Positions 7,060 to 37,696 of a DNA stretch of 47,968 bases are shown here, one piece after another. Each line of letters opens with the position of its first letter. The stretch's first letter is position 1. The stretch is from a virus. The position numbers and the translations under genes are program-made. The stretch is taken from positions 1-47,968 of the IMG/VR virus record IMGVR_UViG_3300031578_000065; one strand, written 5' to 3'. Under the pieces are notes generated by a model, which searched no databases, was not told the DNA's origin, and saw only the letters and a list, made by a program, of their open reading frames with translations.

Positions 7060-7358
7060 TCAGCTCGATTGTCGGCGCCATCATCAGCTGGCTGTTCAGT
7101 TTCCTCCAGGCCGAGCACCAGAAGAAGGTCGTGGAAAAGGCCATTGTCACCATGAACCAGGGCGGCGTGCTCGCTACCCACCAAGCGGAGCAAACAGATG
7201 TCCAAATCCAAACTGATCGTCAACAGAACCAGGCAGCATCGGATCATGTGGCTTCTCTCGGGCCTGATGCTCGCGGCCACGGTGGTAGCCTGCTCGAACA
7301 ATCCGCCGCTGCCCAGCGCAGCGTCGACGCGGCTAACAATCAACTGCCACGAGCATGA
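7056..7358 (+). CDS. Putative i-spanin (Rz-like)
   Basis: 100 aa. It starts at the ATG at 7056, in the stop of the previous gene (ATGA). One N-terminal membrane segment (ISSIVGAIISWLFSFLQ) is followed by a charged, Gln/Ala-rich periplasmic region of likely helical coiled coil (EHQKKVVEKA, QTDVQIQTDRQQNQAA). This is the topology of an Rz-type i-spanin. Its last 160 nt overlap in another frame with the lipoprotein gene at 7198, the classic Rz/Rz1 arrangement. Confidence 0.65.
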   Translation: MISSIVGAIISWLFSFLQAEHQKKVVEKAIVTMNQGGVLATHQAEQTDVQIQTDRQQNQAASDHVASLGPDARGHGGSLLEQSAAAQRSVDAANNQLPRA

Positions 7359-7587
7359 ACCCGATGAACTTCTTCCGCCGGTTCCTCAGCCGAATCCACT
7401 CGTTGACGCCGACCCTGGTGGTAACTACGCCCGCGCCGTTGCAATCATCGATGCCCTGCGCGCCTACGCCGGACAGCAGAATGTCTACATCACTCGAGCC
7501 GCTGGTGCCCTCCAGCTCGAACGTGAGAAACGCCACGGCACCGCAACCTGCCTCGATTCACTCCGAGCCCAAGGGCTCATCTACTGA
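7198..7587 (+). CDS. Putative o-spanin lipoprotein (Rz1-like)
   Basis: 129 aa in the +1 frame relative to the i-spanin. It has a basic N-terminus, a hydrophobic stretch (WLLSGLMLAATVV) and a lipobox ending in Cys (TVVAC-SNN), so signal peptidase II cleavage and outer-membrane anchoring are expected. A proline-rich stretch (ELLPPVPQPNP) follows, typical of Rz1. Longer than lambda Rz1: the C-terminal part (NYARAVAIIDALRAYAGQQ...) is extra. Together with the i-spanin it would fuse inner and outer membranes, which implies a Gram-negative host. Confidence 0.7.
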   Translation: MSKSKLIVNRTRQHRIMWLLSGLMLAATVVACSNNPPLPSAASTRLTINCHEHEPDELLPPVPQPNPLVDADPGGNYARAVAIIDALRAYAGQQNVYITRAAGALQLEREKRHGTATCLDSLRAQGLIY

Positions 7588-7603
7588 CCTGGAGTCAATG
7601 CTC

Positions 7604-7906
7604 ATGCAAATCTTCGCCCTGATCCTCAGCTTCATCACCCAACTCCCCGGCATCATCAAGCTCATCGACCAGGTCGTGTTGAGCGTCGAGGCGGCGTTCC
7701 CGACGGCCACCGGCAGCCAGAAGCTCGCAGCTGCAACGGCCAAGGTCAACACGATCCTCGGAGCGGCCGTGACCGACTCGCAGGCGCTCAGCAGTTTGAC
7801 GACCGTCGTCACGCCACTGATCAACGCATCCGTCGCGGCGTTCAATGCAGCAGGCACGTTTACCAAGCCTTCAACTGGCTCCGCACAGGCGGCGCCGACT
7901 GCCTGA
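7604..7906 (+). CDS. Small hydrophobic protein at end of lysis cassette
   Basis: 100 aa from the ATG at 7604, with GGAG 9 nt upstream. The frame is open back to an ATG at 7355 that overlaps the i-spanin stop, so a 183-aa form is possible, but the extra part is low complexity and overlaps the o-spanin. The N-terminus is a hydrophobic helix (IFALILSFITQLPGIIKLI), followed by Ala/Thr-rich helices and a small-residue tail. Function unknown; the place suggests a further membrane component of lysis. Confidence 0.6.
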   Translation: MQIFALILSFITQLPGIIKLIDQVVLSVEAAFPTATGSQKLAAATAKVNTILGAAVTDSQALSSLTTVVTPLINASVAAFNAAGTFTKPSTGSAQAAPTA

Positions 7907-7930
7907 TACCTGGTTGACAGCAATGCATCT

Positions 7931-7957
7931 AAGTGACCCTGACGATCAGGGTCACTT
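7931..7957. terminator. Hairpin terminator between lysis and packaging genes
   Basis: AAGTGACCCTG (7931-7941) and CAGGGTCACTT (7947-7957) form a perfect 11-bp stem with a 5-nt loop, followed by TTGCTC, so the U tract is short. It separates the lysis cassette from the packaging genes and may be partial. Confidence 0.7.
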
Positions 7958-7975
7958 TGCTCAAGGAGAGACGTG

Positions 7976-8074
7976 ATGAATACCAAGTATCAATGGCAAC
8001 TGAAACCGCTCGTCGTGTGCATCTGCCTGGCGCTATACGGCATTCCCATTCCCCTGGTTCTTCGCCCACACTGA
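7976..8074 (+). CDS. Very small membrane peptide (32 aa)
   Basis: A short frame beginning MNTKYQWQLKPLVV with an excellent AAGGAG 7 nt upstream of the ATG at 7976. Its core (LVVCICLALYGIPIPLVL) is one membrane span. It ends 2 nt before the terminase small subunit start, so translation may be coupled. It follows the hairpin terminator directly. Function unknown; a lysis regulator or a leader peptide for the packaging genes are both possible. Confidence 0.5.
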   Translation: MNTKYQWQLKPLVVCICLALYGIPIPLVLRPH

Positions 8075-8076
8075 TC

Positions 8077-8511
8077 ATGCCTGCCCGCATCAAACCAGCC
8101 GTGAAGAAAAAGGCGCCAGCCAAGAAGCCGGCGGCTGAGGTCGTCGTGCGCAAGCCGATCCTGAAGCCGGGCACGAAGGTCCAGCGCAAAATGTTGGCGA
8201 ACGAAGGCATCGACATCGTCAAGCGCAAGCGTGGCCGGCCGCCAGGTTCGAAGAACCAGCGCGCTGAGGAGTTGCTTGAAGTCATCGAGACGGAAGGCCT
8301 CACGCCGCTGGAGTACATGCTTGTCGAGATGCGCAACTCCAAGAATGACAAATCGACGCGCCTGAGTGCCGCGCGCGATGCTGCGCCATACCTGCATCCA
8401 CGGCTGTCCAGCATCATGCACCGTGGTGACCCCAAGGCTCCGCTGCTCCCGTCTGAAATCACGCCGGATGAATTCGAAACAGCAGCCAGGAAGTTGCTCG
8501 ATGAGATCTGA
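8077..8511 (+). CDS. terS: Terminase small subunit (putative)
   Basis: 144 aa from the ATG at 8077 (MPARIKPAVKKK). It begins with a Lys/Ala/Pro tail (KKKAPAKKPAAE), then a GRPPGSKNQRAEELLE segment resembling an AT-hook followed by a helix. The rest is helical and acidic at the end (ITPDEFETAARKLLDE). It is placed just before terL and overlaps it by 11 nt, as usual for the DNA-recognition subunit of the packaging motor. The assignment rests mainly on position, basic DNA-binding character and size. Confidence 0.7.
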   Translation: MPARIKPAVKKKAPAKKPAAEVVVRKPILKPGTKVQRKMLANEGIDIVKRKRGRPPGSKNQRAEELLEVIETEGLTPLEYMLVEMRNSKNDKSTRLSAARDAAPYLHPRLSSIMHRGDPKAPLLPSEITPDEFETAARKLLDEI

Positions 8512-12280: not shown

Positions 12281-14125
12281 ATGGCAACGGTAATACTTGA
12301 TATGCCCATCAAATCATGCAAGCTGCCAGGCGGCAAGGACGGGTTCCAGTGGGGCGACCACGGGACCTGCTATGTTGACCGCTCCAAGGCTGAAGCGCAG
12401 GCCGCTGCAGCCCATGCAAACGGGTTCGTAGGGGATTCTGGCGAGATGGCGGCAGGTATCGCGCTGATTCGTGACGGATCGGTTCTCTTGATGCAGCGCT
12501 CGGTAAGCAGTACGTACGGTGGTCTCTGGAGTTTGCCGGGTGGCAAGGTCGAGGAAGGTGAGCAACCTGATGACGCCGCGTGTCGTGAGTTGTACGAAGA
12601 GACGGGCATCTCGATCGAACCCGGCGACCTGCGCTACCTGAGCACTGACCCGGAAGGTGAGATGGACTTCTTGGCTTTCATTGCTCCGGCGCCAGCATCG
12701 GCCAATGTCGAAATCGACCAAGAGCATGGGTCGTTCGGCTGGTTCCCGCTGAATGCCTTGCCTCAGCCGCTGCACCCGAGCCTGGTCAAGAGTCTGGGCT
12801 CAGGCCTGTTGCACGCCGGTGTCATGGCACAGGACATCGAGACCTGTGCGATGGATCGCGACTCAGTCCGCGAGTACGACAAGGTCGGTCGCCTGCGTGT
12901 CGAGATGTCCAACATCAGCAAGGCGAACGTCTGCGATTACTACGGGCGTGAGATTCCACACTACAAAGAACTTGGGCTGAACCCCGACAAGATCTACAAG
13001 TTGCTGCGCGACCCGGTGGAACTGGCCAAGGCAGCACCGACGTTCAACGGTATTCAGCTTCTGTACACGCATACGCCTGTGAGTGCAGCCGACCCGAAGA
13101 AAGAATACGTGGTCGGCTGCACGGGCAGTGATGCCGTGTTCAACCCGCCTTACCTGCAAAACTCGTTGGTCTTCTGGGACAACGCCGCGATCGCGGCGAT
13201 CGAGACCTTCGAGATGAATCAATTGTCTTCGTCGTATCACTACGACGCGGACATGACGCCCGGCGACTATGAAGGTGTGGCCTACGACGGCCGCATGATA
13301 AATATCGTCGGCAACCACGTCGCCCTCGTAAAGGTGGGCCGTGCTGGCGCTGACGTTGTTGTCGGCGATTCTCAACCCCTGGAGCATAGCAACATGACCA
13401 AAAAGACAAGTGCCAAGGCGGTCGCCCAGCGCGCCGCCCTCGGAGCCTATCTGAGGCCTGCACTGGCCAACGATTCGGCCCCGATTCCGTACGATCGACT
13501 GCTGAAGGCCAACGCTTCGCCGTTGGTGACGGCGCGCGCCACTGCTGCACACTACAAGACCAAGTTCGAGGTCAACCCGAAGGAGCTGGCCAACATCCTG
13601 CAGCTGGCGGCCGATGAGGCCCCCGACGACGATGCCGAGGACGAGGAAGAGGAGACCGAGGAAGAGCGGAAGGAACGCGAAGCCAAGGAAATGGCGGCCA
13701 AGGACAAGAAGGCCAAGGACGAAGCTGATCCGAAAAAGCCGGTCGATCGTTCGCTCGGCAAGGACAAGGAAGAAGACGACGACGACAAGGACAAGGACAA
13801 GGAAGACCGTACTGCAGCCGATGCTGCTCTCGTGAAACGGATGCAGAACGACTTCAAGGCACTGCGCCAGGCCGAACGCGATGTCGCTCCACTCGTCGGC
13901 GAAGTCGCCGCCATGGACAGCGCTGAAGAAGTCTACCGCTACGCCCTGGGTCAGGTCGGCGTTCCGCACAAGGGCGTTCATACCAGTGCACTCGGTACGC
14001 TCGTCGGCATGGCCCGCACTCAGGCCAAGGCTCCCACACTCCGGGCTGTCCCGGCCATGGATTCCGATGCGCGTTCGGAGTTCTCCACCAAGTACGCTGG
14101 CGCCAGCCAGATCAAGAGGATCTGA
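12281..14125 (+). CDS. Fusion: Nudix hydrolase + DUF2213 head maturation domain + acidic scaffold-like tail
   Basis: 614 aa. Residues 1-48 hold a GGKDGFQWGDHGTCY motif. Residues 56-175 are a Nudix domain with a complete Nudix box (residues 88-110: G-x5-E-x7-REL-x-EE-x-G-I), so hydrolysis of a nucleoside diphosphate derivative is expected. Residues ~190-375 are a DUF2213 domain (DKVGRLRVEMSNISKANV, DYYGREIP, VGCTGSDA), the family thought to act as head maturation protease in these phages. Residues ~440-520 are a long Glu/Asp/Lys-rich stretch like a scaffold, followed by a helical end. The joining of a Nudix enzyme to a head maturation protein is unusual. There is one start and no internal stop. 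Confidence 0.85.
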   Translation: MATVILDMPIKSCKLPGGKDGFQWGDHGTCYVDRSKAEAQAAAAHANGFVGDSGEMAAGIALIRDGSVLLMQRSVSSTYGGLWSLPGGKVEEGEQPDDAACRELYEETGISIEPGDLRYLSTDPEGEMDFLAFIAPAPASANVEIDQEHGSFGWFPLNALPQPLHPSLVKSLGSGLLHAGVMAQDIETCAMDRDSVREYDKVGRLRVEMSNISKANVCDYYGREIPHYKELGLNPDKIYKLLRDPVELAKAAPTFNGIQLLYTHTPVSAADPKKEYVVGCTGSDAVFNPPYLQNSLVFWDNAAIAAIETFEMNQLSSSYHYDADMTPGDYEGVAYDGRMINIVGNHVALVKVGRAGADVVVGDSQPLEHSNMTKKTSAKAVAQRAALGAYLRPALANDSAPIPYDRLLKANASPLVTARATAAHYKTKFEVNPKELANILQLAADEAPDDDAEDEEEETEEERKEREAKEMAAKDKKAKDEADPKKPVDRSLGKDKEEDDDDKDKDKEDRTAADAALVKRMQNDFKALRQAERDVAPLVGEVAAMDSAEEVYRYALGQVGVPHKGVHTSALGTLVGMARTQAKAPTLRAVPAMDSDARSEFSTKYAGASQIKRI

Positions 14126-18603: not shown

Positions 18604-20082
18604 ATGATCAATGTCCGCAGTATCGTTCAAGTCAATCCGGCTGTTCTTGCAGCGGCGGGTAGTGCCGTCGACCTCAATGGCCTCTTCCTCACTCAGTCTC
18701 CTTACCCTCCGATTGGTACGGCTCCGAGTTTCGTCAGCGCTGCTGACGTCGGCGCGTACTTCGGGCTGTCCAGCAACGAATACAAGGCCGCGCAGATTTA
18801 CTTCACTGGCCCGGTCAACGCAACCAAGACACCGGGCAAGATGTATTTTGCCCAGTATGCTGAAGTGGCGGTTAGTGCGTACCTGCGTGGCGGCAGTGTG
18901 TTAGGTCTCTCGCTTGCCCAGTTGCAGGCGCTGACCGGTACATTGATCATCACGGCCGATGGTACGGCTAATACCTCGGCTTCCATCAACTTGTCGGCAG
19001 CGACCAGTTTCTCGAATGCAGCCACGATCATCCTGGCAGCGTTCACCACGCCGACGTTCAGTATCACCTACGATGCTCAGCATGGTGCCTTCGTCTTCAC
19101 GAGCGGTACAACTGGTGTAACATCCACCATGGCGGAGGCAGGCGGAACCCTGGCTGCTGATTTGAAGCTGACGACGGCTACAGGCGCCGTTCTGTCGGCC
19201 GGAGCGGATATCGCTACGCCGTCATCGGCCATGACCGCCCTGACGGCCATCACGCAGGACTGGGGTGGCTTCGCGACGATATGGGAGCCCGTACTCGCCG
19301 ACAAGGAAGCATTTTCGGCCTGGACGGCAGCGCAGAACGATCGTTACCTGTACGCTGGCGCTGACAGCGATGTCACGGCGCTCACTTCGGGTTCTACCAC
19401 CACGTGGGCTTACGCTGTTGGTCAGTTGAAGGAAGACGGCACCGCTCCCATCTTCGGCGACTACACCCACAGCGCGTTCTTGCTGGGTCAGATCGCATCG
19501 CTGGATTTCACCCGGCTGAACGGTCGCGCGACGAGTGCGTTCAAGCAGAGTAGCGCCGGTCTGGTTCCGCCAGTCTCCACCGATGCGAACTCTGCCGCAC
19601 TGCTCGCCAACGGCTACAACTTCTACGGCACTTACGCCACGGGCAACCAGAGCTTCACCTGGTTCTACCCTGGCAGCATGCTCGGTCAGTGGAAATGGAT
19701 TGACAGTTATGTCAACCAAATCTGGCTGAACGCTCAATTGCAGCTGGCCATGATCAACCTGCTGCTTGCTGTTGGATCGATTCCGTATAACCAGGAAGGC
19801 TATGCCCTGGTCGATGCGGCGTGCTTGGACCCGATCGCTGCTGCCGTCAACTTCGGCGCCATCCGCACCGGTGTCCAGTTGTCCAGTGCTCAGGCGGCAG
19901 AATTGCAGAATGCCCTCGGCGTCGACGTTTCCAACATCATGTACCAAAACGGTTGGTACCTGCAGATTCTCCCGGCGCCTGCAGGCGTTCGCGCAGCCCG
20001 CACCAGTCCGCCAATGACGCTGTATTACATGGATGGCGGTAGCGTCCAGCAGCTCGTTCTCGCCTCCATCGAAATCCAGTAA
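18604..20082 (+). CDS. Tail sheath protein (DUF3383)
   Basis: 492 aa. Starts INVRSIVQVNPAVLAAAG and ends in a beta domain (GGSVQQLVLASIEIQ); the middle has repeated Ala/Thr/Ser segments. Size, family features and the tube gene directly downstream identify the contractile sheath. It proves a contractile tail. An A+T-poor coding stretch with no internal signals. Confidence 0.85.
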   Translation: MINVRSIVQVNPAVLAAAGSAVDLNGLFLTQSPYPPIGTAPSFVSAADVGAYFGLSSNEYKAAQIYFTGPVNATKTPGKMYFAQYAEVAVSAYLRGGSVLGLSLAQLQALTGTLIITADGTANTSASINLSAATSFSNAATIILAAFTTPTFSITYDAQHGAFVFTSGTTGVTSTMAEAGGTLAADLKLTTATGAVLSAGADIATPSSAMTALTAITQDWGGFATIWEPVLADKEAFSAWTAAQNDRYLYAGADSDVTALTSGSTTTWAYAVGQLKEDGTAPIFGDYTHSAFLLGQIASLDFTRLNGRATSAFKQSSAGLVPPVSTDANSAALLANGYNFYGTYATGNQSFTWFYPGSMLGQWKWIDSYVNQIWLNAQLQLAMINLLLAVGSIPYNQEGYALVDAACLDPIAAAVNFGAIRTGVQLSSAQAAELQNALGVDVSNIMYQNGWYLQILPAPAGVRAARTSPPMTLYYMDGGSVQQLVLASIEIQ

Positions 20083-30639: not shown

Positions 30640-31227
30640 CTAGCCCCCTTTTTGGAGGCCTGGCAGCAGCTCAAAGGTCCTTCCGGCCTGGCGCCAGAGG
30701 TCCAGGGCCTCAGTATGCGGATACATCTCGCTAAATACCAGCCGTCCGCATGAGGTATTCAGCAGCAACTTGACACAGGTCATGCAGGGCGAACAGGTCG
30801 TATAACAAACGGCGATCGCCTGAACGTCCCGGCACTGCAGCAAGGCATTTTGCTCTGCGTGGATTGCCTGGCAAGCATCCAGGTTCGTGCCACTCGGCGA
30901 CTGAGCCCCGGCGCAGGCATTGGCAAAGACCTGGTCGAACCCGACACACTGGCGATCGCCGAAGTTCAACCTCATCTTGTCAGTCACCCTATTGTTGAAC
31001 AGCCAAAACGTGCCTTTGTCTTCAACGCGTGGATCGTCGTTATAGACTGGTGTCTCAGTCAGTTCATTGCAATGAGGCAGGCCAGCTGCCACGCCGTTAT
31101 AACCCGTTGCCAGAACGTGGCCTAGGCCATCGATCAGAACACACCCGACAGCCCGGCGACAACAGGTGGACCGGCGAGCCGTGACTTCAGCCAGTTGCAG
31201 TGCCCATTGATCGCGTGAGATTCTCAT
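30640..31227 (-). CDS. Deoxycytidylate (dCMP) deaminase
   Basis: 195 aa from the ATG at 31227 (the ATG overlaps the stop of the upstream gene). The zinc motifs are intact: AIHAEQNAL (His123, Glu125) and TCSPCMTC (Cys148, Cys151). It should convert dCMP to dUMP. A ~55-residue insertion (about residues 58-112, VYNDDPRVEDKG...ACAGAQSPSG) lies between the first strand region and the HAE motif, longer than I expect from the T4-type enzyme. It is the last gene of the modification cassette. Confidence 0.85.
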   Translation of the reverse strand: MRISRDQWALQLAEVTARRSTCCRRAVGCVLIDGLGHVLATGYNGVAAGLPHCNELTETPVYNDDPRVEDKGTFWLFNNRVTDKMRLNFGDRQCVGFDQVFANACAGAQSPSGTNLDACQAIHAEQNALLQCRDVQAIAVCYTTCSPCMTCVKLLLNTSCGRLVFSEMYPHTEALDLWRQAGRTFELLPGLQKGG

Positions 31228-32066
31228 GGCGCCAGCTCCCACCACCGATCGCGCCTGCCGGGTTGATCGCGGATCGCAGCCAACTTGGTAAGCACCGCCT
31301 TGCCAGAGTGAAACAGTTCTTTGGGCGTTTCCAAGTCAGCCACTGTCTCCAACGACGCCAGACAGGCGCGGGCCGTTTCCAGGTCGCGCTCGTACAGATG
31401 GCTTGACGCCGCCGTCAAGAACAGCGAACCGGGCTCGATATCGTCGGGCTCGGCTTTGTTGTTCCTGGCGGCGCTGCCACGCCGGTGCTGGTTCAGGAAC
31501 CCGCAGACCTGGTGGGCAATCATGCTGAAGTTGAACGTGTCATAGGGGAGACCGAGCCACGCATCCGAACTACGCATGAATACATGGCAGTTCAACTTGT
31601 CATTGCGAATCTGGAAGAAGAGCGCAATCGTGCAGGGGACGTCCTTCGTTTCCGGTGGACACGGGCGCCAGAGAGTCAGGCCGGCCTGGCGGGTATCCGG
31701 GTCGTTCATGAGTTTGTTCACGACATAGGGGAGTTGTGCAACGTAACGTGGCCCATAGGCGCCAAAGAATGTCTTGCCGTCGTCGCTGAATTGGGCGATA
31801 CGTGAATTCCATGGGGCGATGGTCTCGACCCGGTCTTCACCTTCCAGAATCCACAGCGCCTCGGCCGCCATGAAGCGATAGTTCAACGAGCGCTGTGGCG
31901 TCATCAGAACTGGATGCCGCATGTCAGTGATGAATGTCAACTGAGGCAGTTCGATTGTTTTCTGCCCGCGCGGTGCAATCGGTTCGCCGTAGCCGATTAA
32001 CCGGCGTAGCGTTTCGAGCCAGGTTTCAGTGACGGTTGCAATTTTGAACTGAGGATCAGATTTCAT
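31224..32066 (-). CDS. Thymidylate synthase family enzyme, predicted dCMP-specific (hydroxymethylase-like)
   Basis: 280 aa from the ATG at 32066. It keeps the catalytic Cys (KDVPCTIALFFQI, Cys145), the phosphate-binding Arg and Asp in RSSDAWLG (165-168) and HLY (223-225). At the position of E. coli ThyA Asn177, which selects uracil, it has Asp176 (LGLPYDTFNFS instead of LGLPFNIASYA). Replacement of this Asn by Asp is the known difference in T4 dCMP hydroxymethylase. I therefore infer a dCMP 5-hydroxymethylase or 5-methylase rather than a plain thymidylate synthase. The His normally next to the Cys is Thr here. It is read between the kinase and deaminase genes and overlaps both. Confidence 0.75.
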   Translation of the reverse strand: MKSDPQFKIATVTETWLETLRRLIGYGEPIAPRGQKTIELPQLTFITDMRHPVLMTPQRSLNYRFMAAEALWILEGEDRVETIAPWNSRIAQFSDDGKTFFGAYGPRYVAQLPYVVNKLMNDPDTRQAGLTLWRPCPPETKDVPCTIALFFQIRNDKLNCHVFMRSSDAWLGLPYDTFNFSMIAHQVCGFLNQHRRGSAARNNKAEPDDIEPGSLFLTAASSHLYERDLETARACLASLETVADLETPKELFHSGKAVLTKLAAIRDQPGRRDRWWELAP

Positions 32067-33000
32067 GATTGAGGTCTCTTTTGAGTAGTTCGATGAGGGG
32101 ATATGACTGGTTCGCCGACTGAGGTGTCTTGAACCATTCATACGGATGGTCCACGAGCTGGAACTCCTGGCCCGGCACTTCCCGCAACGCCATCGCAGCC
32201 TCGTCGCCAAGGGCGTAGAAGATTTTATTGCTCGCCAGACTTTCACCGACCAGGTCGAATCGGTCAAGATCTATCCACAACAATTCGTCTTCTCCAATGC
32301 CATGAACGTTGAGCTGCCCAGTCAGCCAGTGCTCATAACCGATCCGACGAAAAGACCCGAATGGCCATTGATACATCAAATCGGACTCTGCTATATCACG
32401 CGGCTTGCCGCTGACCAGGACAACCTTGGCCGCAGGATTACCACCGCTGAGAGAATCCAATCGATGAACGAGAGGCCGGAGTCGATCGAGTCCAGCCATC
32501 ACGCTCGCGGCCTGGTCGCCGAAGCATTTGGTGTAATCGAACTCCAACATGTTCAACGCCGTGTTTGGCTCGCCATATGCCTGATAAACATTAGCCAACT
32601 GGTCAGTAGTAGTCAACATCTCCTGTGCTCGCCGGCTGAGATAGTTCTCCTTGACGACTTCCCATGACGGCCGGCAATTGACGACCTGAGCCGCACAGCG
32701 CCACGCCAGCCGATCGAGCATCCGCATGTCGACTGGGCTCAACCTGGAATAGCCGCCCCTGAATGCATCGCCGTAGATTGGCTCGGACAGCCAAGACCGG
32801 TCAAGCACCACGTTGCGGTAGCCGAGCAGCGCCGGCAGCATGGCTTCAGCGTAGAGCCGGCCGAGGTTGAACGTCACATTAGGAAAAGGCCCACAGTGAA
32901 CGTATACAGCGTCGATATCCTTGGCAACGGCTTTTGCCAGGGTAGTCTTGCCGGCGCCATCAGGGCCTTCGAAAATAACGACCCGCTTGCAGTAATTCAT
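32056..33000 (-). CDS. Deoxynucleoside monophosphate kinase with unusual C-terminal domain
   Basis: 314 aa. Residues 1-190 are a thymidylate-kinase-like P-loop kinase (FEGPDGAGKTTLA at 10-22; VLDRSWLSEPIYGDAF; LID-like SRRAQEML). It should raise dNMP, perhaps modified dCMP, to the diphosphate. Residues ~195-314 are an added domain: a strand (KVVLVSGKP), then 'SLASNKIFYALGDEAAMAL' and a closing 'HPYEW...SYPLIELLK'. The last part is reminiscent of uracil-DNA-glycosylase-fold proteins (a LG-x-E-A-x-x-AL helix and a HP motif), but this is only an impression. It overlaps the next gene by 11 nt. Confidence 0.75.
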   Translation of the reverse strand: MNYCKRVVIFEGPDGAGKTTLAKAVAKDIDAVYVHCGPFPNVTFNLGRLYAEAMLPALLGYRNVVLDRSWLSEPIYGDAFRGGYSRLSPVDMRMLDRLAWRCAAQVVNCRPSWEVVKENYLSRRAQEMLTTTDQLANVYQAYGEPNTALNMLEFDYTKCFGDQAASVMAGLDRLRPLVHRLDSLSGGNPAAKVVLVSGKPRDIAESDLMYQWPFGSFRRIGYEHWLTGQLNVHGIGEDELLWIDLDRFDLVGESLASNKIFYALGDEAAMALREVPGQEFQLVDHPYEWFKTPQSANQSYPLIELLKRDLNHEI

Positions 33001-33563
33001 GGTTCCATCCCCGCGTCTGTCGGTTCCTCAGACAGGATATCATCGGCGCATCTGGCCTCGTCGATATCAGCTGAGCCAGCACCAGCGAAATCGGCCCACT
33101 GATACCCGGAACCAGCCAGGATTGCCGTGCCATCCGGTCCACGCCAGCCTGGCGGCTTCATCAGGTCCCGCCGGTGGCCGCGCTTGGTCGGGCCAGGGAC
33201 TTTCTCCATGTTCGCCCGCTGGACGTCATCCCACAAGGTCTGCCAGGGCAATCCCATCATGACGGCCGTACCGATGGCGAAGTAGACCAGGTCCACGAGC
33301 GCATCGGCCTGGTCAGCGAGATGACCTTGTGGTCGTCTGACGGATATATTGATTTTGTCCGGCGCGATCTGGTCTTCATCATGCTGTGTCTGAAATTTAA
33401 GCCCGCTTGCATCGGCGAACTCTGTCAGCTCCTCCAGCATGCACTCGATCCGCTCCTTGAGCTTGCGTTGGGTCAGGTGTTGGGGCTTGTGACCAACCAT
33501 CAGGCCGAACTTCCGGTTGAATTCCGCGATGTCCTGCTCGTGAGTATTTTTGCCGTTGCTCAT
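32997..33563 (-). CDS. MazG-type nucleotide pyrophosphohydrolase (PRA-PH-like)
   Basis: 188 aa from the ATG at 33563 (ATGA overlap). The all-alpha metal-binding pattern is visible: ERIECMLEELTEFADAS and DALVDLVYFAIGTAVMMGLPW, then DDVQRANMEKVPG, as in phage MazG-like enzymes. It should cleave a (d)NTP to the monophosphate; in this cassette a dCTPase/dUTPase role, like T4 gp56, is the natural guess. The C-terminal ~60 residues (ADFAGAGSADIDEARCADD) are acidic and of unknown use. Confidence 0.75.
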   Translation of the reverse strand: MSNGKNTHEQDIAEFNRKFGLMVGHKPQHLTQRKLKERIECMLEELTEFADASGLKFQTQHDEDQIAPDKINISVRRPQGHLADQADALVDLVYFAIGTAVMMGLPWQTLWDDVQRANMEKVPGPTKRGHRRDLMKPPGWRGPDGTAILAGSGYQWADFAGAGSADIDEARCADDILSEEPTDAGMEP

Positions 33564-34915
33564 GATTGTGACTCCTTCTGTTTGCGTAGACGATTGCGTT
33601 GCCAAGCCACGTCGCTGAGGGTGGCCTTGGAGTTGGGGAACTGGCGATGGACTTCCGCCAGGATCTTGTCGGGATGGTCGCCGCGCTCCAGACATTCACG
33701 AATGAACTCGCCGCTGCCCATCTTCTGCAGGCCAGACTTCTTGCTGACCGGATTGCCCGGTGCTCGTGGCGACCTGATGCGCACCCTGGCCGCCGGCGCC
33801 GGTTCCTGGCTCCACTGGCGGACATCGCCGAACTGAGAATCAGGCGCAGCCAATTGCTCCTCGGCAAAGACCTTGTCAGGCCCTCCAGAACAGTCATAGA
33901 GGGTGTAGACCGGGCGACGAGGCAGTCGCTTGCCCGTAGTAATCCCGGCAGCAACGGCCGTCGCCAGCCACTTGCCTACGGGTGGCATGACGGCACGGGA
34001 CAACATGATGAAGTCTGACCCGTTGCCGCCACCGGCGCCTCGCCAGTCAGGCGGCAGCCCACACAAGCGAAGTTGCTCTGACCAGGTGAGCATGCGCGGT
34101 TCGAACGGATGGAGCAGATTGACCCGATCCAGGTTCACCGGTGCGGGCTGATCGGGGAGAAGTCGCCGACTGAAGAACCCAGGTCGCCGACTGACTTTCA
34201 GTGCAGTAACTTCCTTGGTGTCGAGGGCTTGCCACGACCGACGCATTTTGCCGTGGTTCTCAGACAGCTCCCACAACTTATCCCAGCCGGTTGCCGTGAC
34301 CTCAGCTTCGATCTTCTCGCCCTTGCTGATCCTCAGTCCCTTGAGCGCCTGGCGCACCGTGATTGGTGCAGTCAGGTCCGGGTAGATCAATGGATAGCGA
34401 TGAGCAACGACCAGGATACGCGGCCGGTTCTGAGGCGTACCGAGATACATGTTGTTTTGCTTGATCACAGTCACATGATACCCGGCTGCCATCCAGGCCT
34501 GAGCAATCCGGTCGATGAATCCGCGACCGTGGCGCCAGGCATTGGTGACAGACTCCCAAACCCACGCATCGGGCCTCAGGTCGATACCGTATGTGGCCAG
34601 GTTATCGATGTACCCGAGGCGTTCGGTGTGTTCTTGCCACGACCCCTTCTTGCTGGCCCTGGCCGACGACCAGGCAGCGCAGGGCGGATTGCAGAACATC
34701 AGGTTGACCTTGCCGAAGGTCTTGGGCTCAGGCCAATCGGATGGATACATCCAGACCCGGCCGACCAGCTCCGGGTGATTCAACTGGGCAGTTGCAACGC
34801 CATAGTTGCTATGCTCCAGGTGACCGAGGACCTTGTAGCCGGCTTGCTTGACACCGACGGTAAACAGGCCAGCGAAGATATCCCCGCCGAGAGCGGTTAG
34901 TGGATATTTAGCCAC
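33560..34915 (-). CDS. Divergent C5-cytosine DNA methyltransferase homologue with C-terminal module
   Basis: 451 aa from the GTG at 34915 (overlaps the previous stop). It has the family motifs in order but altered: motif I DIFAGLFTVGVKQAGY (no FxGxGG), motif IV NPPCAAWSS with the catalytic Cys79, motif VI WVWESV where ENV is usual, motif VIII QNRPRIL (162-166) and motif X SRAVMPPVG. The catalytic Cys and Glu remain, so it may be active, on cytosine or on an already modified cytosine. The last ~50 residues (GEFIRECLERGDHPDKI... VAWQRNRLRKQ) are a separate module also present in the proteins encoded at 36022 and 37151. Ends within the MazG-like start. Confidence 0.75.
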   Translation of the reverse strand: MAKYPLTALGGDIFAGLFTVGVKQAGYKVLGHLEHSNYGVATAQLNHPELVGRVWMYPSDWPEPKTFGKVNLMFCNPPCAAWSSARASKKGSWQEHTERLGYIDNLATYGIDLRPDAWVWESVTNAWRHGRGFIDRIAQAWMAAGYHVTVIKQNNMYLGTPQNRPRILVVAHRYPLIYPDLTAPITVRQALKGLRISKGEKIEAEVTATGWDKLWELSENHGKMRRSWQALDTKEVTALKVSRRPGFFSRRLLPDQPAPVNLDRVNLLHPFEPRMLTWSEQLRLCGLPPDWRGAGGGNGSDFIMLSRAVMPPVGKWLATAVAAGITTGKRLPRRPVYTLYDCSGGPDKVFAEEQLAAPDSQFGDVRQWSQEPAPAARVRIRSPRAPGNPVSKKSGLQKMGSGEFIRECLERGDHPDKILAEVHRQFPNSKATLSDVAWQRNRLRKQKESQS

Positions 34916-35138
34916 GAGTCACCTCCGAAATCGGGTATTTGATAAATTTCTCCGCTTCCTGATCAGTTTGCATAAAGTGAAGTAACGCGCCAACCTTCAG
35001 TTTGCGAAGGTTGGTGACTTTGACGTCTTTCCAAAGCCAGTCCTGGAAAGGACGAGATGCTTTAACCTCGCTGGTTTTCTCGTCTATATCCCACTCGAGA
35101 AAGTCCTGCCCGTGATCTTCGAACTTCACAGTGATCAT
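34908..35138 (-). CDS. Hypothetical protein (76 aa) between the two methyltransferase genes
   Basis: MITVKFEDHGQDFLEW starts at 35138 in the stop of the upstream methyltransferase gene (ATGA). It is a small charged alpha/beta protein with a VTNLRKLKVGALLHF middle. Similar short proteins often accompany phage enzymes; no family recognised. Co-translated with both neighbours, so likely part of the same function. Confidence 0.65.
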   Translation of the reverse strand: MITVKFEDHGQDFLEWDIDEKTSEVKASRPFQDWLWKDVKVTNLRKLKVGALLHFMQTDQEAEKFIKYPISEVTRG

Positions 35139-35932
35139 GCCGGCCTCCGGCAAATCCACAGGTTGTTGCGAGCTACATCGGGATAGAGCGGAGCGAAGAT
35201 CGCCGAGAGGGCGTCGTTGTCGTAGTAGTCAGCAAGTGCCTGCTTCATACGATGAACTTGTCGATGGTCAACCAGGTTCTCAGGATCAACGAATTGGTTT
35301 TGGATTCCCTTCCCGATATCCCTCACATTCATGAATGTACCGAACCGGCGTTCGACGATGAAGCCGGCCTTCTCCACCATCTTCTGGAGCTCAGGCACCG
35401 TGTACTCGTGGATATGGTTCGCAGCGTGATGCTTGCCGTCGTAGACTGGAGTGGACATCAGCATCACGCCTCCGGGCCTGAGCAGTTCGAAGCAGCCCTT
35501 CAGCAACTTCTTACCGTGCTCGACCTTCATGTGCTCGATGACTTCCATGTGAACGGCGACGTCGAACCCATGGCTGGCGCCAGGTTCGCCCGGTCGCGGA
35601 ATCTGCCGCCAGTTCTTGGTGAAGTCGAATTCGCCGAGCAGGGTGGATTGCTTGTGACCTGATCCCAGCCCGGTCAACTTGTTCAGATCTACTCCGGTGT
35701 AGGACGCTGCCAGCTGGAACGACCCGTGAAACAGCATCCGCCACAACGGTCGCTCAGGCCCACAACCGACTTCCAGAACGTGGTCGGTTTTCTTGATCCA
35801 GCGTCGGGCAAAGGACCAGCGGTGCCAGTGAGCTGTGTAGTCGCGATGGAGTTTTGCGCCCTCCATATTGGCGTGCAGGGATGTCTGATCGAACTCGCGA
35901 TCATCCCTGCGCTTCTCGCGCGGTGTCTTCAT
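35135..35932 (-). CDS. Class I SAM-dependent methyltransferase
   Basis: 265 aa. A Rossmann-type methyltransferase: motif I HVLEVGCGPE, then YTGVDLN, MEVIEHMK and LLRPGGVMLMSTPV. No DNA-specific NPPY or PC motif is seen, so it resembles methyltransferases acting on small molecules or on modified bases. Start at 35932 with GAGG upstream. It follows a strong hairpin. Its place in the dCMP cassette makes a role in base modification attractive but unproven. Confidence 0.75.
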   Translation of the reverse strand: MKTPREKRRDDREFDQTSLHANMEGAKLHRDYTAHWHRWSFARRWIKKTDHVLEVGCGPERPLWRMLFHGSFQLAASYTGVDLNKLTGLGSGHKQSTLLGEFDFTKNWRQIPRPGEPGASHGFDVAVHMEVIEHMKVEHGKKLLKGCFELLRPGGVMLMSTPVYDGKHHAANHIHEYTVPELQKMVEKAGFIVERRFGTFMNVRDIGKGIQNQFVDPENLVDHRQVHRMKQALADYYDNDALSAIFAPLYPDVARNNLWICRRPA

Positions 35933-36021: not shown

Positions 36022-36780
36022 TCAGGCCTTGATGGCGTCCGGCACCTTGGCGCCGCCCTTGCGCAAGTGGTTCCGGTACCAACTGACGTACGCACGCTTC
36101 TTGTCATCCAGGCCAAAGGCCTTCTGGACCTTGGCGAAGATCGCGTCATCGGTCAGCTTGCCTTCCATGATGAGGCTCTGGAACATGGACGAGGCGCTTT
36201 CCTTGCGCGCGCCCTTCTCCTTGGGCTCAGCCTTCTCCTTGCTCTTGCCCTTCGCCGCCGGAGCGGCCTTGCCCTTGCCCTTGCTACCCGAGGCCGGATT
36301 GGCCGGCTTGGTGGGGAGCTGCTTGACCTTCGGTGCACTGTTCGCCGGCAGGTCGGTCTTCTTGGTGCCGGTCTTGACTGAGGCCTCGAGGGCTGCAGTC
36401 TCGTTGGTCGGTCCCTTGCCCTTCAGGCTACTGGAGCCTTTGGCGGCGGGTTTGGTCTTCGGCTTGGCAGTGTTGGCGGTTTTCTTGGCGGTAGCCATGG
36501 TGATATCCTCTTTGGTGACGGTGGTTACGTGCCCGAGATAATCAAGGGCATCGCGGGTTGCGCCGATCTGGCGCGCATAACCGACATAGAGCCGGGCGGC
36601 TCGTTCTGCCGGGTAATCCTTGAGCGGTTGGAACTCAGCATCGAATTCAGTCGCTCGCCGGTCTTCCACATCGAGGCCTTCCTCGACATTCAACCGGATG
36701 ATCTTGACTTCACTTTTTGTTCTGGCGACGACCAGGCAGCTTCTGCGCTGGCGGTCGACGCACGCGACGACCTGATTCAT
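36022..36780 (-). CDS. Basic protein with N-terminal domain, Lys/Ala/Pro linker and C-terminal WYRN module; possible internal start
   Basis: 252 aa from the ATG at 36780 (GGAGG 7 nt upstream). Residues 1-93 are a small domain (VACVDRQRRSCLVVARTKSEVKII, ending DYLGHVTTVTKEDI). A second ATG at 36498 (MATAKKTANTAK) is in the same frame and has its own AGAGG about 9 nt upstream, so a 158-aa product may also be made, or the reading frame joins two ancestral genes. The middle is histone-H1-like (Lys, Ala, Pro, Thr). The last ~45 residues (SMFQSLIMEGKLTDDAIF...VSWYRNHLRKG) are the module shared with the C5-methyltransferase homologue and the 37151 protein. Confidence 0.7.
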   Translation of the reverse strand: MNQVVACVDRQRRSCLVVARTKSEVKIIRLNVEEGLDVEDRRATEFDAEFQPLKDYPAERAARLYVGYARQIGATRDALDYLGHVTTVTKEDITMATAKKTANTAKPKTKPAAKGSSSLKGKGPTNETAALEASVKTGTKKTDLPANSAPKVKQLPTKPANPASGSKGKGKAAPAAKGKSKEKAEPKEKGARKESASSMFQSLIMEGKLTDDAIFAKVQKAFGLDDKKRAYVSWYRNHLRKGGAKVPDAIKA

Positions 36781-37009
36781 TTGTGAGCCTCCAAGCCAGA
36801 TCATCAGCAGTGACCGAGAGTTCAAGCATGCCTTCCAGCATTGCTTTGGCCTCAGCCCACTGGATCGGGCCACAGATGTTGAAGTTGAAATGGACTTGCT
36901 TGTTGCCGATGACTTCGACGATTGCGATACGCTGAGCGGTTCCTACACTCAGCGAGTACCGCTCGTTCTCAGCCGTCGACTCGTCGCTGATCCTCACGAG
37001 GTTTACCAT
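36710..37009 (-). CDS. Hypothetical protein (99 aa)
   Basis: Starts at the ATG at 37009 (MVNLVRISDESTAENE), 9 nt after GAAGG. A small alpha/beta protein (AIVEVIGNKQVHFNFNICGP; EAKAMLEGMLELSVTADD) with a basic tail (RRVRRPPAQKLPGRRQNKK). It overlaps the start of the 252-aa gene by 71 nt and the previous gene by 41 nt. Function unknown. Confidence 0.65.
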   Translation of the reverse strand: MVNLVRISDESTAENERYSLSVGTAQRIAIVEVIGNKQVHFNFNICGPIQWAEAKAMLEGMLELSVTADDLAWRLTNESGRRVRRPPAQKLPGRRQNKK

Positions 37010-37150: not shown

Positions 37151-37696
37151 TTAGTCCTTCCTCGGTGGGAGTTTGCCAATCCGGCGGAAATGACACCGGT
37201 ACCAACTGACGTAGTGAGCGCGGTCGTCCCCAAGCTGCCAGCGAACCCGGACGGTATCCCAGACTTCCTGGTTGGTCTTACCCTTCAGGAACAAAGCCAG
37301 ACAGTCACCGGCGCAACTGGCTGCCCGCGGCTTGCGCTTCGGGATGGTAACGGGTTTCTGCTGGGCCACCTCAGGATTGGAGGTTTCCACGGCGACGGCC
37401 GCCTCGACGACGTTCACCTGATACCGGCCGTCGGCCAGCTTGTGGGTAAACTTCTTGTGATACTTCTTGTTCACGCCCAGCTTCAGCAGCATGGTAGTGG
37501 CGTGAGTCTGGTCCTTCGCGATCCGCGACCCCAAGGGGGCGCGCGGAGCAGACTTGACTTCGGGAGTCACGTGACGACGAGCGGGCTTCCGCACCGTAGC
37601 GCGGACTGGCCGGGCAGGTTTGGCCGGGGTGGCCTGAGTCTTGCGGGTGGATTTCGGCGCCGCCGTGGCAGCAGCCTTCGACTTCTTGGCTTTCAT
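37151..37696 (-). CDS. Basic protein with C-terminal WYR module (181 aa)
   Basis: MKAKKSKAAATAAPK begins at 37696, after GGCTGAGGAGGAG. The first ~55 residues are an H1-like Lys/Arg/Ala/Pro tail. A middle segment (THATTMLLKLGVNKKYHKKFTHKLADGRYQVNVVEA) looks like a small folded part. The last ~50 residues (CAGDCLALFLKGKTNQEVWDTV... YVSWYRCHFRRIG) are the shared module. DNA binding is likely from its charge; the target is unknown. Confidence 0.7.
   Translation of the reverse strand: MKAKKSKAAATAAPKSTRKTQATPAKPARPVRATVRKPARRHVTPEVKSAPRAPLGSRIAKDQTHATTMLLKLGVNKKYHKKFTHKLADGRYQVNVVEAAVAVETSNPEVAQQKPVTIPKRKPRAASCAGDCLALFLKGKTNQEVWDTVRVRWQLGDDRAHYVSWYRCHFRRIGKLPPRKD

Follow-up and report, generated by a model that had tools for sequence, protein, structure and literature searches.

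The question raised by this locus is what chemistry is encoded by seven overlapping genes that run on the minus strand from position 35932 to position 30640 of IMG/VR virus record IMGVR_UViG_3300031578_000065, a record of 47,968 bases that was analysed over its whole length and is called the window here. The initial annotation had described the run as a cassette predicted to make and process modified cytosine DNA, and all seven genes are indeed intact, free of internal stops and overlapping by 4 to 22 bases. From the observed gene content, signature residues and co-occurrence among relatives, we infer with about even confidence a two-stage cytosine hypermodification cassette, in which 5-hydroxymethylcytosine (hmC) would be built at the nucleotide level and then O-methylated by an S-adenosylmethionine (SAM)-dependent enzyme, a CmoX-like enzyme adding its own mark in a subset of phages. 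It is the SAM methyltransferase that accompanies the hydroxymethyl pathway as its conserved extra partner, and not the homologue of cytosine-5 DNA methyltransferases (C5-methyltransferases) on which the emphasis had first been placed. The genes, assigned to families with Pfam and PHROGs, are in order from 35932:

35135..35932, minus strand: class I SAM methyltransferase, 265 amino acids, core module member, predicted O-methyltransferase of the hydroxymethyl group (Methyltransf_23, PF13489, 2e-10; UbiG 2e-10, Hen1 4e-9; AlphaFold2 predicted local distance difference test score, pLDDT, 85)
34908..35138, minus strand: 76-amino-acid protein, matching uncharacterised PHROGs only (PHROG_27241, 9e-16)
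33560..34915, minus strand: C5-methyltransferase homologue, 451 amino acids, CmoX-like, accessory module member (PF00145, 2e-13; SpCmoX 8yf3, 1e-21; Cys79, Glu121, Arg307)
32997..33563, minus strand: PRA-PH/MazG-type nucleoside triphosphate pyrophosphohydrolase, 188 amino acids, with a presumed role in hydrolysing deoxycytidine triphosphate (dCTP) (PF01503, 9e-14; PHROG_671, 2e-23)
32056..33000, minus strand: two-domain protein, 314 amino acids, thymidylate kinase/YorR-like kinase (residues 1-180) plus putative uracil-DNA-glycosylase-like domain (about 185-314) (PHROG_761, thymidylate-kinase-type, 3e-17; pLDDT 90)
31224..32066, minus strand: thymidylate synthase (TS) homologue, 280 amino acids, predicted deoxycytidine monophosphate (dCMP) 5-hydroxymethylase with Cys145, Asp142 and Asp176 (PF00303, 1e-18; PHROG thymidylate synthase, 9e-42)
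30640..31245, minus strand: dCMP deaminase, 201 amino acids, with an HAE ... PCxxC zinc site (PF00383, 3e-16; PHROG_174, 2e-34)

Predicted synthesis of hydroxymethylcytosine from nucleotides

The TS homologue starts at the ATG at 32066, and not at an upstream TTG, and its closest relative in the PDB is MilA, a CMP 5-hydroxymethylase. In the hydroxymethylase of phage T4, Asp179 is the signature of cytosine recognition, and the use of water instead of hydride is marked by an Asp at the third position ahead of the catalytic Cys (PMC6400193). Both are present in the window: D176 is the equivalent of T4 D179 and of E. coli position 177, which bears out the dCMP-type Asp noted at first, and D142, three residues before Cys145, is the equivalent of T4 D145. 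The Asp at 176 and the catalytic C145 are each kept in 41 of 41 relatives, both Asp occur in 72 of the 73 distinct TS proteins that accompany the SAM methyltransferase (and in one more, read separately, whose gene lies far from the SAM gene), and the deoxyribose-type Ser and Arg are present as well.

Related enzymes with other products display other patterns. SPO1 gp29, which makes 5-hydroxymethyluracil (hmU), combines Asn at 177 with the Asp ahead of the Cys. In the TS of AXL1, a member of the Xp12 group, position 177 is Asp, the Asp ahead of the Cys is replaced by Asn and the folate pocket contains a Trp; dihydrofolate reductase (DHFR) is annotated in the same genome. DHFR is required for methylation and not for hydroxymethylation (PMC6400193), and it has no match in any of 20 module records. 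Since both Asp are found, the Asn, Trp and DHFR pattern of AXL1 is missing and hydroxymethylation needs no DHFR, the product predicted from these residues is likely 5-hydroxymethyl-dCMP, and not 5-methylcytosine (5mC) or hmU. Thymidine hypermodification by way of hmU was rejected on position 177, where Asp stands and not Asn. TS proteins with Asp177, together with PRA-PH proteins and dCMP deaminases, have also been identified by MetaGPA as marks of cytosine-modified viral DNA (PMC8670742). Synthesis of hmC at the nucleotide level is thus the firmest part of the scheme and may be held with considerable confidence.

In this first stage the TS homologue would put a hydroxymethyl group on dCMP, the kinase would help to bring 5-hydroxymethyl-dCMP towards the triphosphate, the PRA-PH/MazG protein would remove dCTP and the dCMP deaminase would convert spare dCMP to deoxyuridine monophosphate (dUMP), the polymerase then presumably incorporating hmC into DNA. 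The initial annotation had equated these four genes with T4 cd, gp42, gp1 and gp56, and as to roles (nucleotide-level hydroxymethyl-dCMP synthesis, dCTP removal and rephosphorylation) the parallel stands; as to descent, the MazG-type protein is a functional analogue and not necessarily a relative of gp56, and the kinase, nearest to thymidylate kinases and YorR and carrying an extra domain, need not be a relative of gp1.

Residues 1-180 of the kinase have thymidylate kinases and YorR as their best matches and fold like them (2axp: Z 16.6, root-mean-square deviation 3.0, 164 residues aligned). The second domain (window 32056-32450, minus strand) is present in most kinase-bearing relatives and missing in some, and it bears the conserved motifs YQWPFaSf..GCS.WLt and HPQ.WKRF. 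It has no Pfam match and no PDB match by sequence, and a comparison with badly cut templates was also empty; a single hhalign comparison with a uracil-DNA-glycosylase profile gave 84%, which suggests a fold of that type.

The SAM methyltransferase and its module

Relatives of the SAM methyltransferase were gathered from viral contigs; among about 70 viral records, the majority have the gene together with TS, MazG and deaminase. The survey of gene neighbourhoods that had been proposed at the outset places TS within a few genes of the SAM gene in 57 of the 68 loci whose flanks are long enough, and five more have TS elsewhere on the record; wherever both genes are present (63 loci), the module genes detected all lie on one strand, usually in the order SAM, MazG, (kinase), TS, deaminase. 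The SAM gene was found in 5 of 50,697 phage records, with the module present in all five. Many module loci also have a common polymerase and helicase, and the co-occurrence of SAM gene and module is partly due to common descent; in two loci, L005 and L051, the module lies beside a polymerase of merely 25-26% identity. A plasmid search returned no similar DNA.

Several other features were seen along these loci. Full modules occur in contigs binned as Chromatiales (L054) and Lentisphaera (L055) genomes, probably prophages or phage contigs, and the SAM protein of L055 is identical to that of viral contig L090. An annotated G:T/U DNA glycosylase lies near the module in L005 (MW202510, 16211-16699), and directly upstream of the module in L124 (4892-5962) and L129 (about 7158-8276) there is a PHROG_14998 protein of 340-370 amino acids that might be a glycosyltransferase. 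The window phage itself is contractile-tailed (tail sheath 18604-20082), and its head maturation protease (12281-14125, plus strand) has an in-frame N-terminal Nudix/MutT-like domain.

Hen1 uses the residues of an ExxEH...H pattern to bind a metal by which a hydroxyl is activated. The profile of the SAM methyltransferase matches UbiG and bacterial Hen1 first, its E130, E133 and H134 align with the ExxEH of both, and these three residues together with H173 and E176 are invariant in 90 of 90 relatives. The ExxEH plus downstream His of Hen1/UbiG-type metal ligands is therefore present, with His173 as a putative metal ligand. Among structures, the AlphaFold model is closest to CmoM (Z 19.0, root-mean-square deviation 4.3, 214 residues), an O-methyltransferase that acts on a C5 substituent of tRNA uridine. 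As the ExxEH...H of Hen1/UbiG-type O-methyltransferases is kept, the best guess for this enzyme's reaction is that it O-methylates hmC, and in the second stage it would methylate the hydroxymethyl oxygen to give 5-methoxymethylcytosine, taking the role that a glucosyl- or carbamoyltransferase plays in other phages. This assignment has a little under an even chance of being right. A literature search of partial coverage found no report of 5-methoxymethylcytosine in phage DNA.

Other tailoring enzymes were also looked for. No glycosyltransferase is identifiable among window open reading frames of more than 200 amino acids, in agreement with the initial annotation, and carbamoylation and glycine ligation were rejected for want of any match to a carbamoyltransferase (PF02543) or an Asn-synthase-type ligase (PF00733), respectively. 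A search for TET/JBP oxidases gave no positive, but its control failed too, hence their absence is not established.

The restriction behaviour of the isolated module phage AXL3 bears on the product. AhdI is an isoschizomer of Eam1105I. DNA of AXL3 resists 35 of 37 restriction enzymes and is cut by TasI and Tru1I alone, which have A/T-only sites, KpnI and Eam1105I being among those that fail (PMC7504290), while the 5mC DNA of Xp12 is cut completely by KpnI and AhdI (PMC7653180). Because sites cut in 5mC DNA resist in AXL3, its DNA is probably not plain 5mC, and an Xp12-like dCMP methylase was rejected on this resistance together with the residue pattern and the lack of DHFR. The hmC DNA of T4gt is resistant to 81.9% of a larger enzyme panel, a rate at which resistance to 35 of 35 enzymes would have a probability of about 0.001; the panels differ, and the figure lends weak support to a mark beyond hmC.

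The C5-methyltransferase homologue

Of 35 SAM-module records, 33 have no C5-methyltransferase homologue, including four complete phage genomes, and the window gene is for this reason classed as accessory. Its presence is scattered on the SAM tree, requiring several gains or losses, with details blurred by long branches. In a number of divergent phages it is a direct neighbour of the SAM gene, and in L138 both enzymes are fused in one chain of 843 amino acids, which suggests action on DNA. A viral contig search with a single C5-methyltransferase sequence gave no match, whereas the SAM-enzyme profile did find partners.

The catalytic Cys79 and Glu121 are kept, but instead of the canonical motifs PCQ, ENV and GN[AS]V the enzyme has PCA, ESV and SRAV, with Arg307 at the position of M.HhaI Asn304. 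Arg or Lys stands there in 14 of 15 module-linked homologues, and Asn in three ordinary phage enzymes. The profile matches SpCmoX (PDB 8YF3) at 1.1e-21 and aligns Arg307 with the Arg of a VGRMV motif. This Arg is taken as R350, through which SpCmoX, published in December 2025, binds the carboxyl group of its cofactor carboxy-SAM (PMC12783734). The SPPC motif of CmoX is replaced by NPPC in the window and by N, H or T before PPC in homologues, and no match to CmoA (TIGR00740) over the cut-off was found in 15 records; a host CmoA can serve CmoX, as shown in E. coli (PMC12783734). With NPPC in place of SPPC and no CmoA found, the enzyme is named CmoX-like only, and a CmoX-like activity is somewhat favoured from the aligned residues. 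In the window phage, and in roughly one fifth of its relatives, the enzyme would add a second mark, probably carboxymethyl and drawn from host-made carboxy-SAM, at cytosines that escape replacement. Cytosines unsubstituted at C5 may be available in hmC DNA through incomplete replacement, or the substrate may be another one.

Two proteins encoded upstream (36022-36873 and 37151-37696, both minus strand) have a common C-terminal motif, ...VSWYRNHLRK, which the C-terminal end of the C5-methyltransferase homologue resembles, and all three products match PHROG_17205, two of them weakly; the 36022-36873 product also has a Lys/Ala-rich, histone H1-like stretch. Relatives of the 76-amino-acid protein were found in phages PW916 (away from the module) and BcepF1, with no tie to the module elsewhere.

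Alternative explanations and known systems

Some observations weigh against the two-stage scheme. Ser94, part of the T4 hydroxymethylase signature, is replaced by Gly102 in all 41 family members, Tyr104 (T4 Tyr96) being kept, and the TS homologue is on that account classed as dCMP-hydroxymethylase-like and not as T4-type. No kinase was detected in 15 loci, and in the eight inspected a 130-amino-acid protein of another family is found in its place; this protein (RGGHPGALA..ALLC..KSQDYN) lies between MazG and TS in L071, L075, L078, L082 and L088, one example matching PHROG_18404 'hydrolase'. Six SAM records, all possibly fragments, are without any TS found. The fold matches of the SAM methyltransferase are also generic, 49 other entries reaching Z 16.6-18.2, so that the likeness to CmoM is a hint and the substrate a guess. 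With hmC made as proposed above, the SAM methyltransferase could have a different target, such as N4 of hmC, some other base or, for a Hen1-like 2'-O-methyltransferase, RNA, given that Hen1 relatives methylate RNA ribose and that the fold does not fix the substrate; its gene, however, accompanies nucleotide-modification enzymes and not RNA-repair genes, and its fusion to a DNA C5 enzyme in L138 also speaks for DNA, which leaves this explanation unlikely but not negligible.

The same fusion, the Arg or Lys at the CmoX position, the top (though tied) structural match to CmoM and the early SAM-tree branches, mostly with the C5 enzyme, would agree with a carboxymethyl pathway: 5-carboxymethylcytosine made by the C5 enzyme would be esterified at its carboxyl by the SAM enzyme, in the manner of CmoM on tRNA, or else the SAM enzyme would supply the carboxy-SAM. 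Considering that nearly all SAM-module records do without the C5 enzyme, this could not be the main role of the SAM enzyme, and with no CmoA over the cut-off in the records searched the pathway is judged improbable. The initial annotation had offered hmC itself as substrate of the C5 enzyme. On that reading the enzyme's Cys would activate hmC so that addition or exchange could take place at the substituent on C5. The change of the canonical-pocket Gln and Asn to Ala and Ser makes room for this, and the enzyme is found in genomes where every C is expected to be hmC; yet the altered pocket, with PCA, ESV and Arg at the Asn304 position, points to carboxy-SAM use instead, the Arg being accounted for in CmoX (PMC12783734), and most hmC-module phages dispense with the enzyme, so the proposal is retained only as a quite improbable rival. 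Ordinary thymidylate supply beside an unrelated DNA methyltransferase corresponds to the published annotation of these genes in AXL3 and PW916 (PMC7504290, PMC9414467), but Asp at 177 disfavours a dUMP substrate, by published mutants, and AXL3, in addition to its modified DNA, encodes a ThyX-type protein (PMC7504290). With both Asp in the TS homologue, this reading was rejected and retains very little probability.

The two-stage scheme, taken to its products, would comprise an unreported base, 5-methoxymethylcytosine, made through the SAM methyltransferase family, and carboxymethyl-type marks made by the CmoX-like enzyme in a subset of phages, a combination proposed only tentatively. hmC is already known as a handle for glucosylation and carbamoylation, and a widespread O-methyl version would, if true, be a minimal cap, explaining near-total type II resistance through genes that have until now been annotated as making thymidylate. 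The cassette would also bring hmC chemistry together with the recently discovered carboxymethyl chemistry within a single operon, and it recurs in dozens of other phages, including the isolated AXL3.

Among known systems, the MetaGPA 5-carbamoyloxymethylcytosine systems (PMC8670742) likewise have an Asp177 TS, PRA-PH and dCMP deaminase on cytosine-modified viral contigs, but tailor with a carbamoyltransferase, of which none was found here. CmoX of Synechococcus phage S-B43 (PMC12783734, PDB 8YF3) shares the C5-methyltransferase fold, an Arg matching M.HhaI Asn304 and a small residue directly following the catalytic Cys; the window enzyme differs in NPPC for SPPC and ESV for ENV, lies inside an hmC cassette and has no CmoA or CmoY-type ligase found with it in the records tested. 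The Xp12-type 5mC phages, such as AXL1, also have an Asp177 TS-family enzyme with deaminase and pyrophosphohydrolase adjacent, and depart from the window in the Asn before the Cys, the folate-pocket Trp and DHFR, Xp12 itself having all C as 5mC. With T4 (cd, gp42, gp1, gp56) the cassette shares the deaminase, the two-Asp hydroxymethylase, a nucleotide kinase, a dCTP-hydrolysing role and modification before polymerisation, and it differs in the Gly for Ser94, in a kinase and pyrophosphohydrolase nearest to other families and in the SAM methyltransferase that replaces the glucosyltransferase. Stenotrophomonas phage AXL3, a siphovirus, and Pseudoxanthomonas phage PW916 differ in having a genome without the C5-methyltransferase homologue and a cassette without the 76-amino-acid gene, but both carry SAM, MazG, kinase, TS and deaminase genes in the order of the window, with proteins 42-57% identical.

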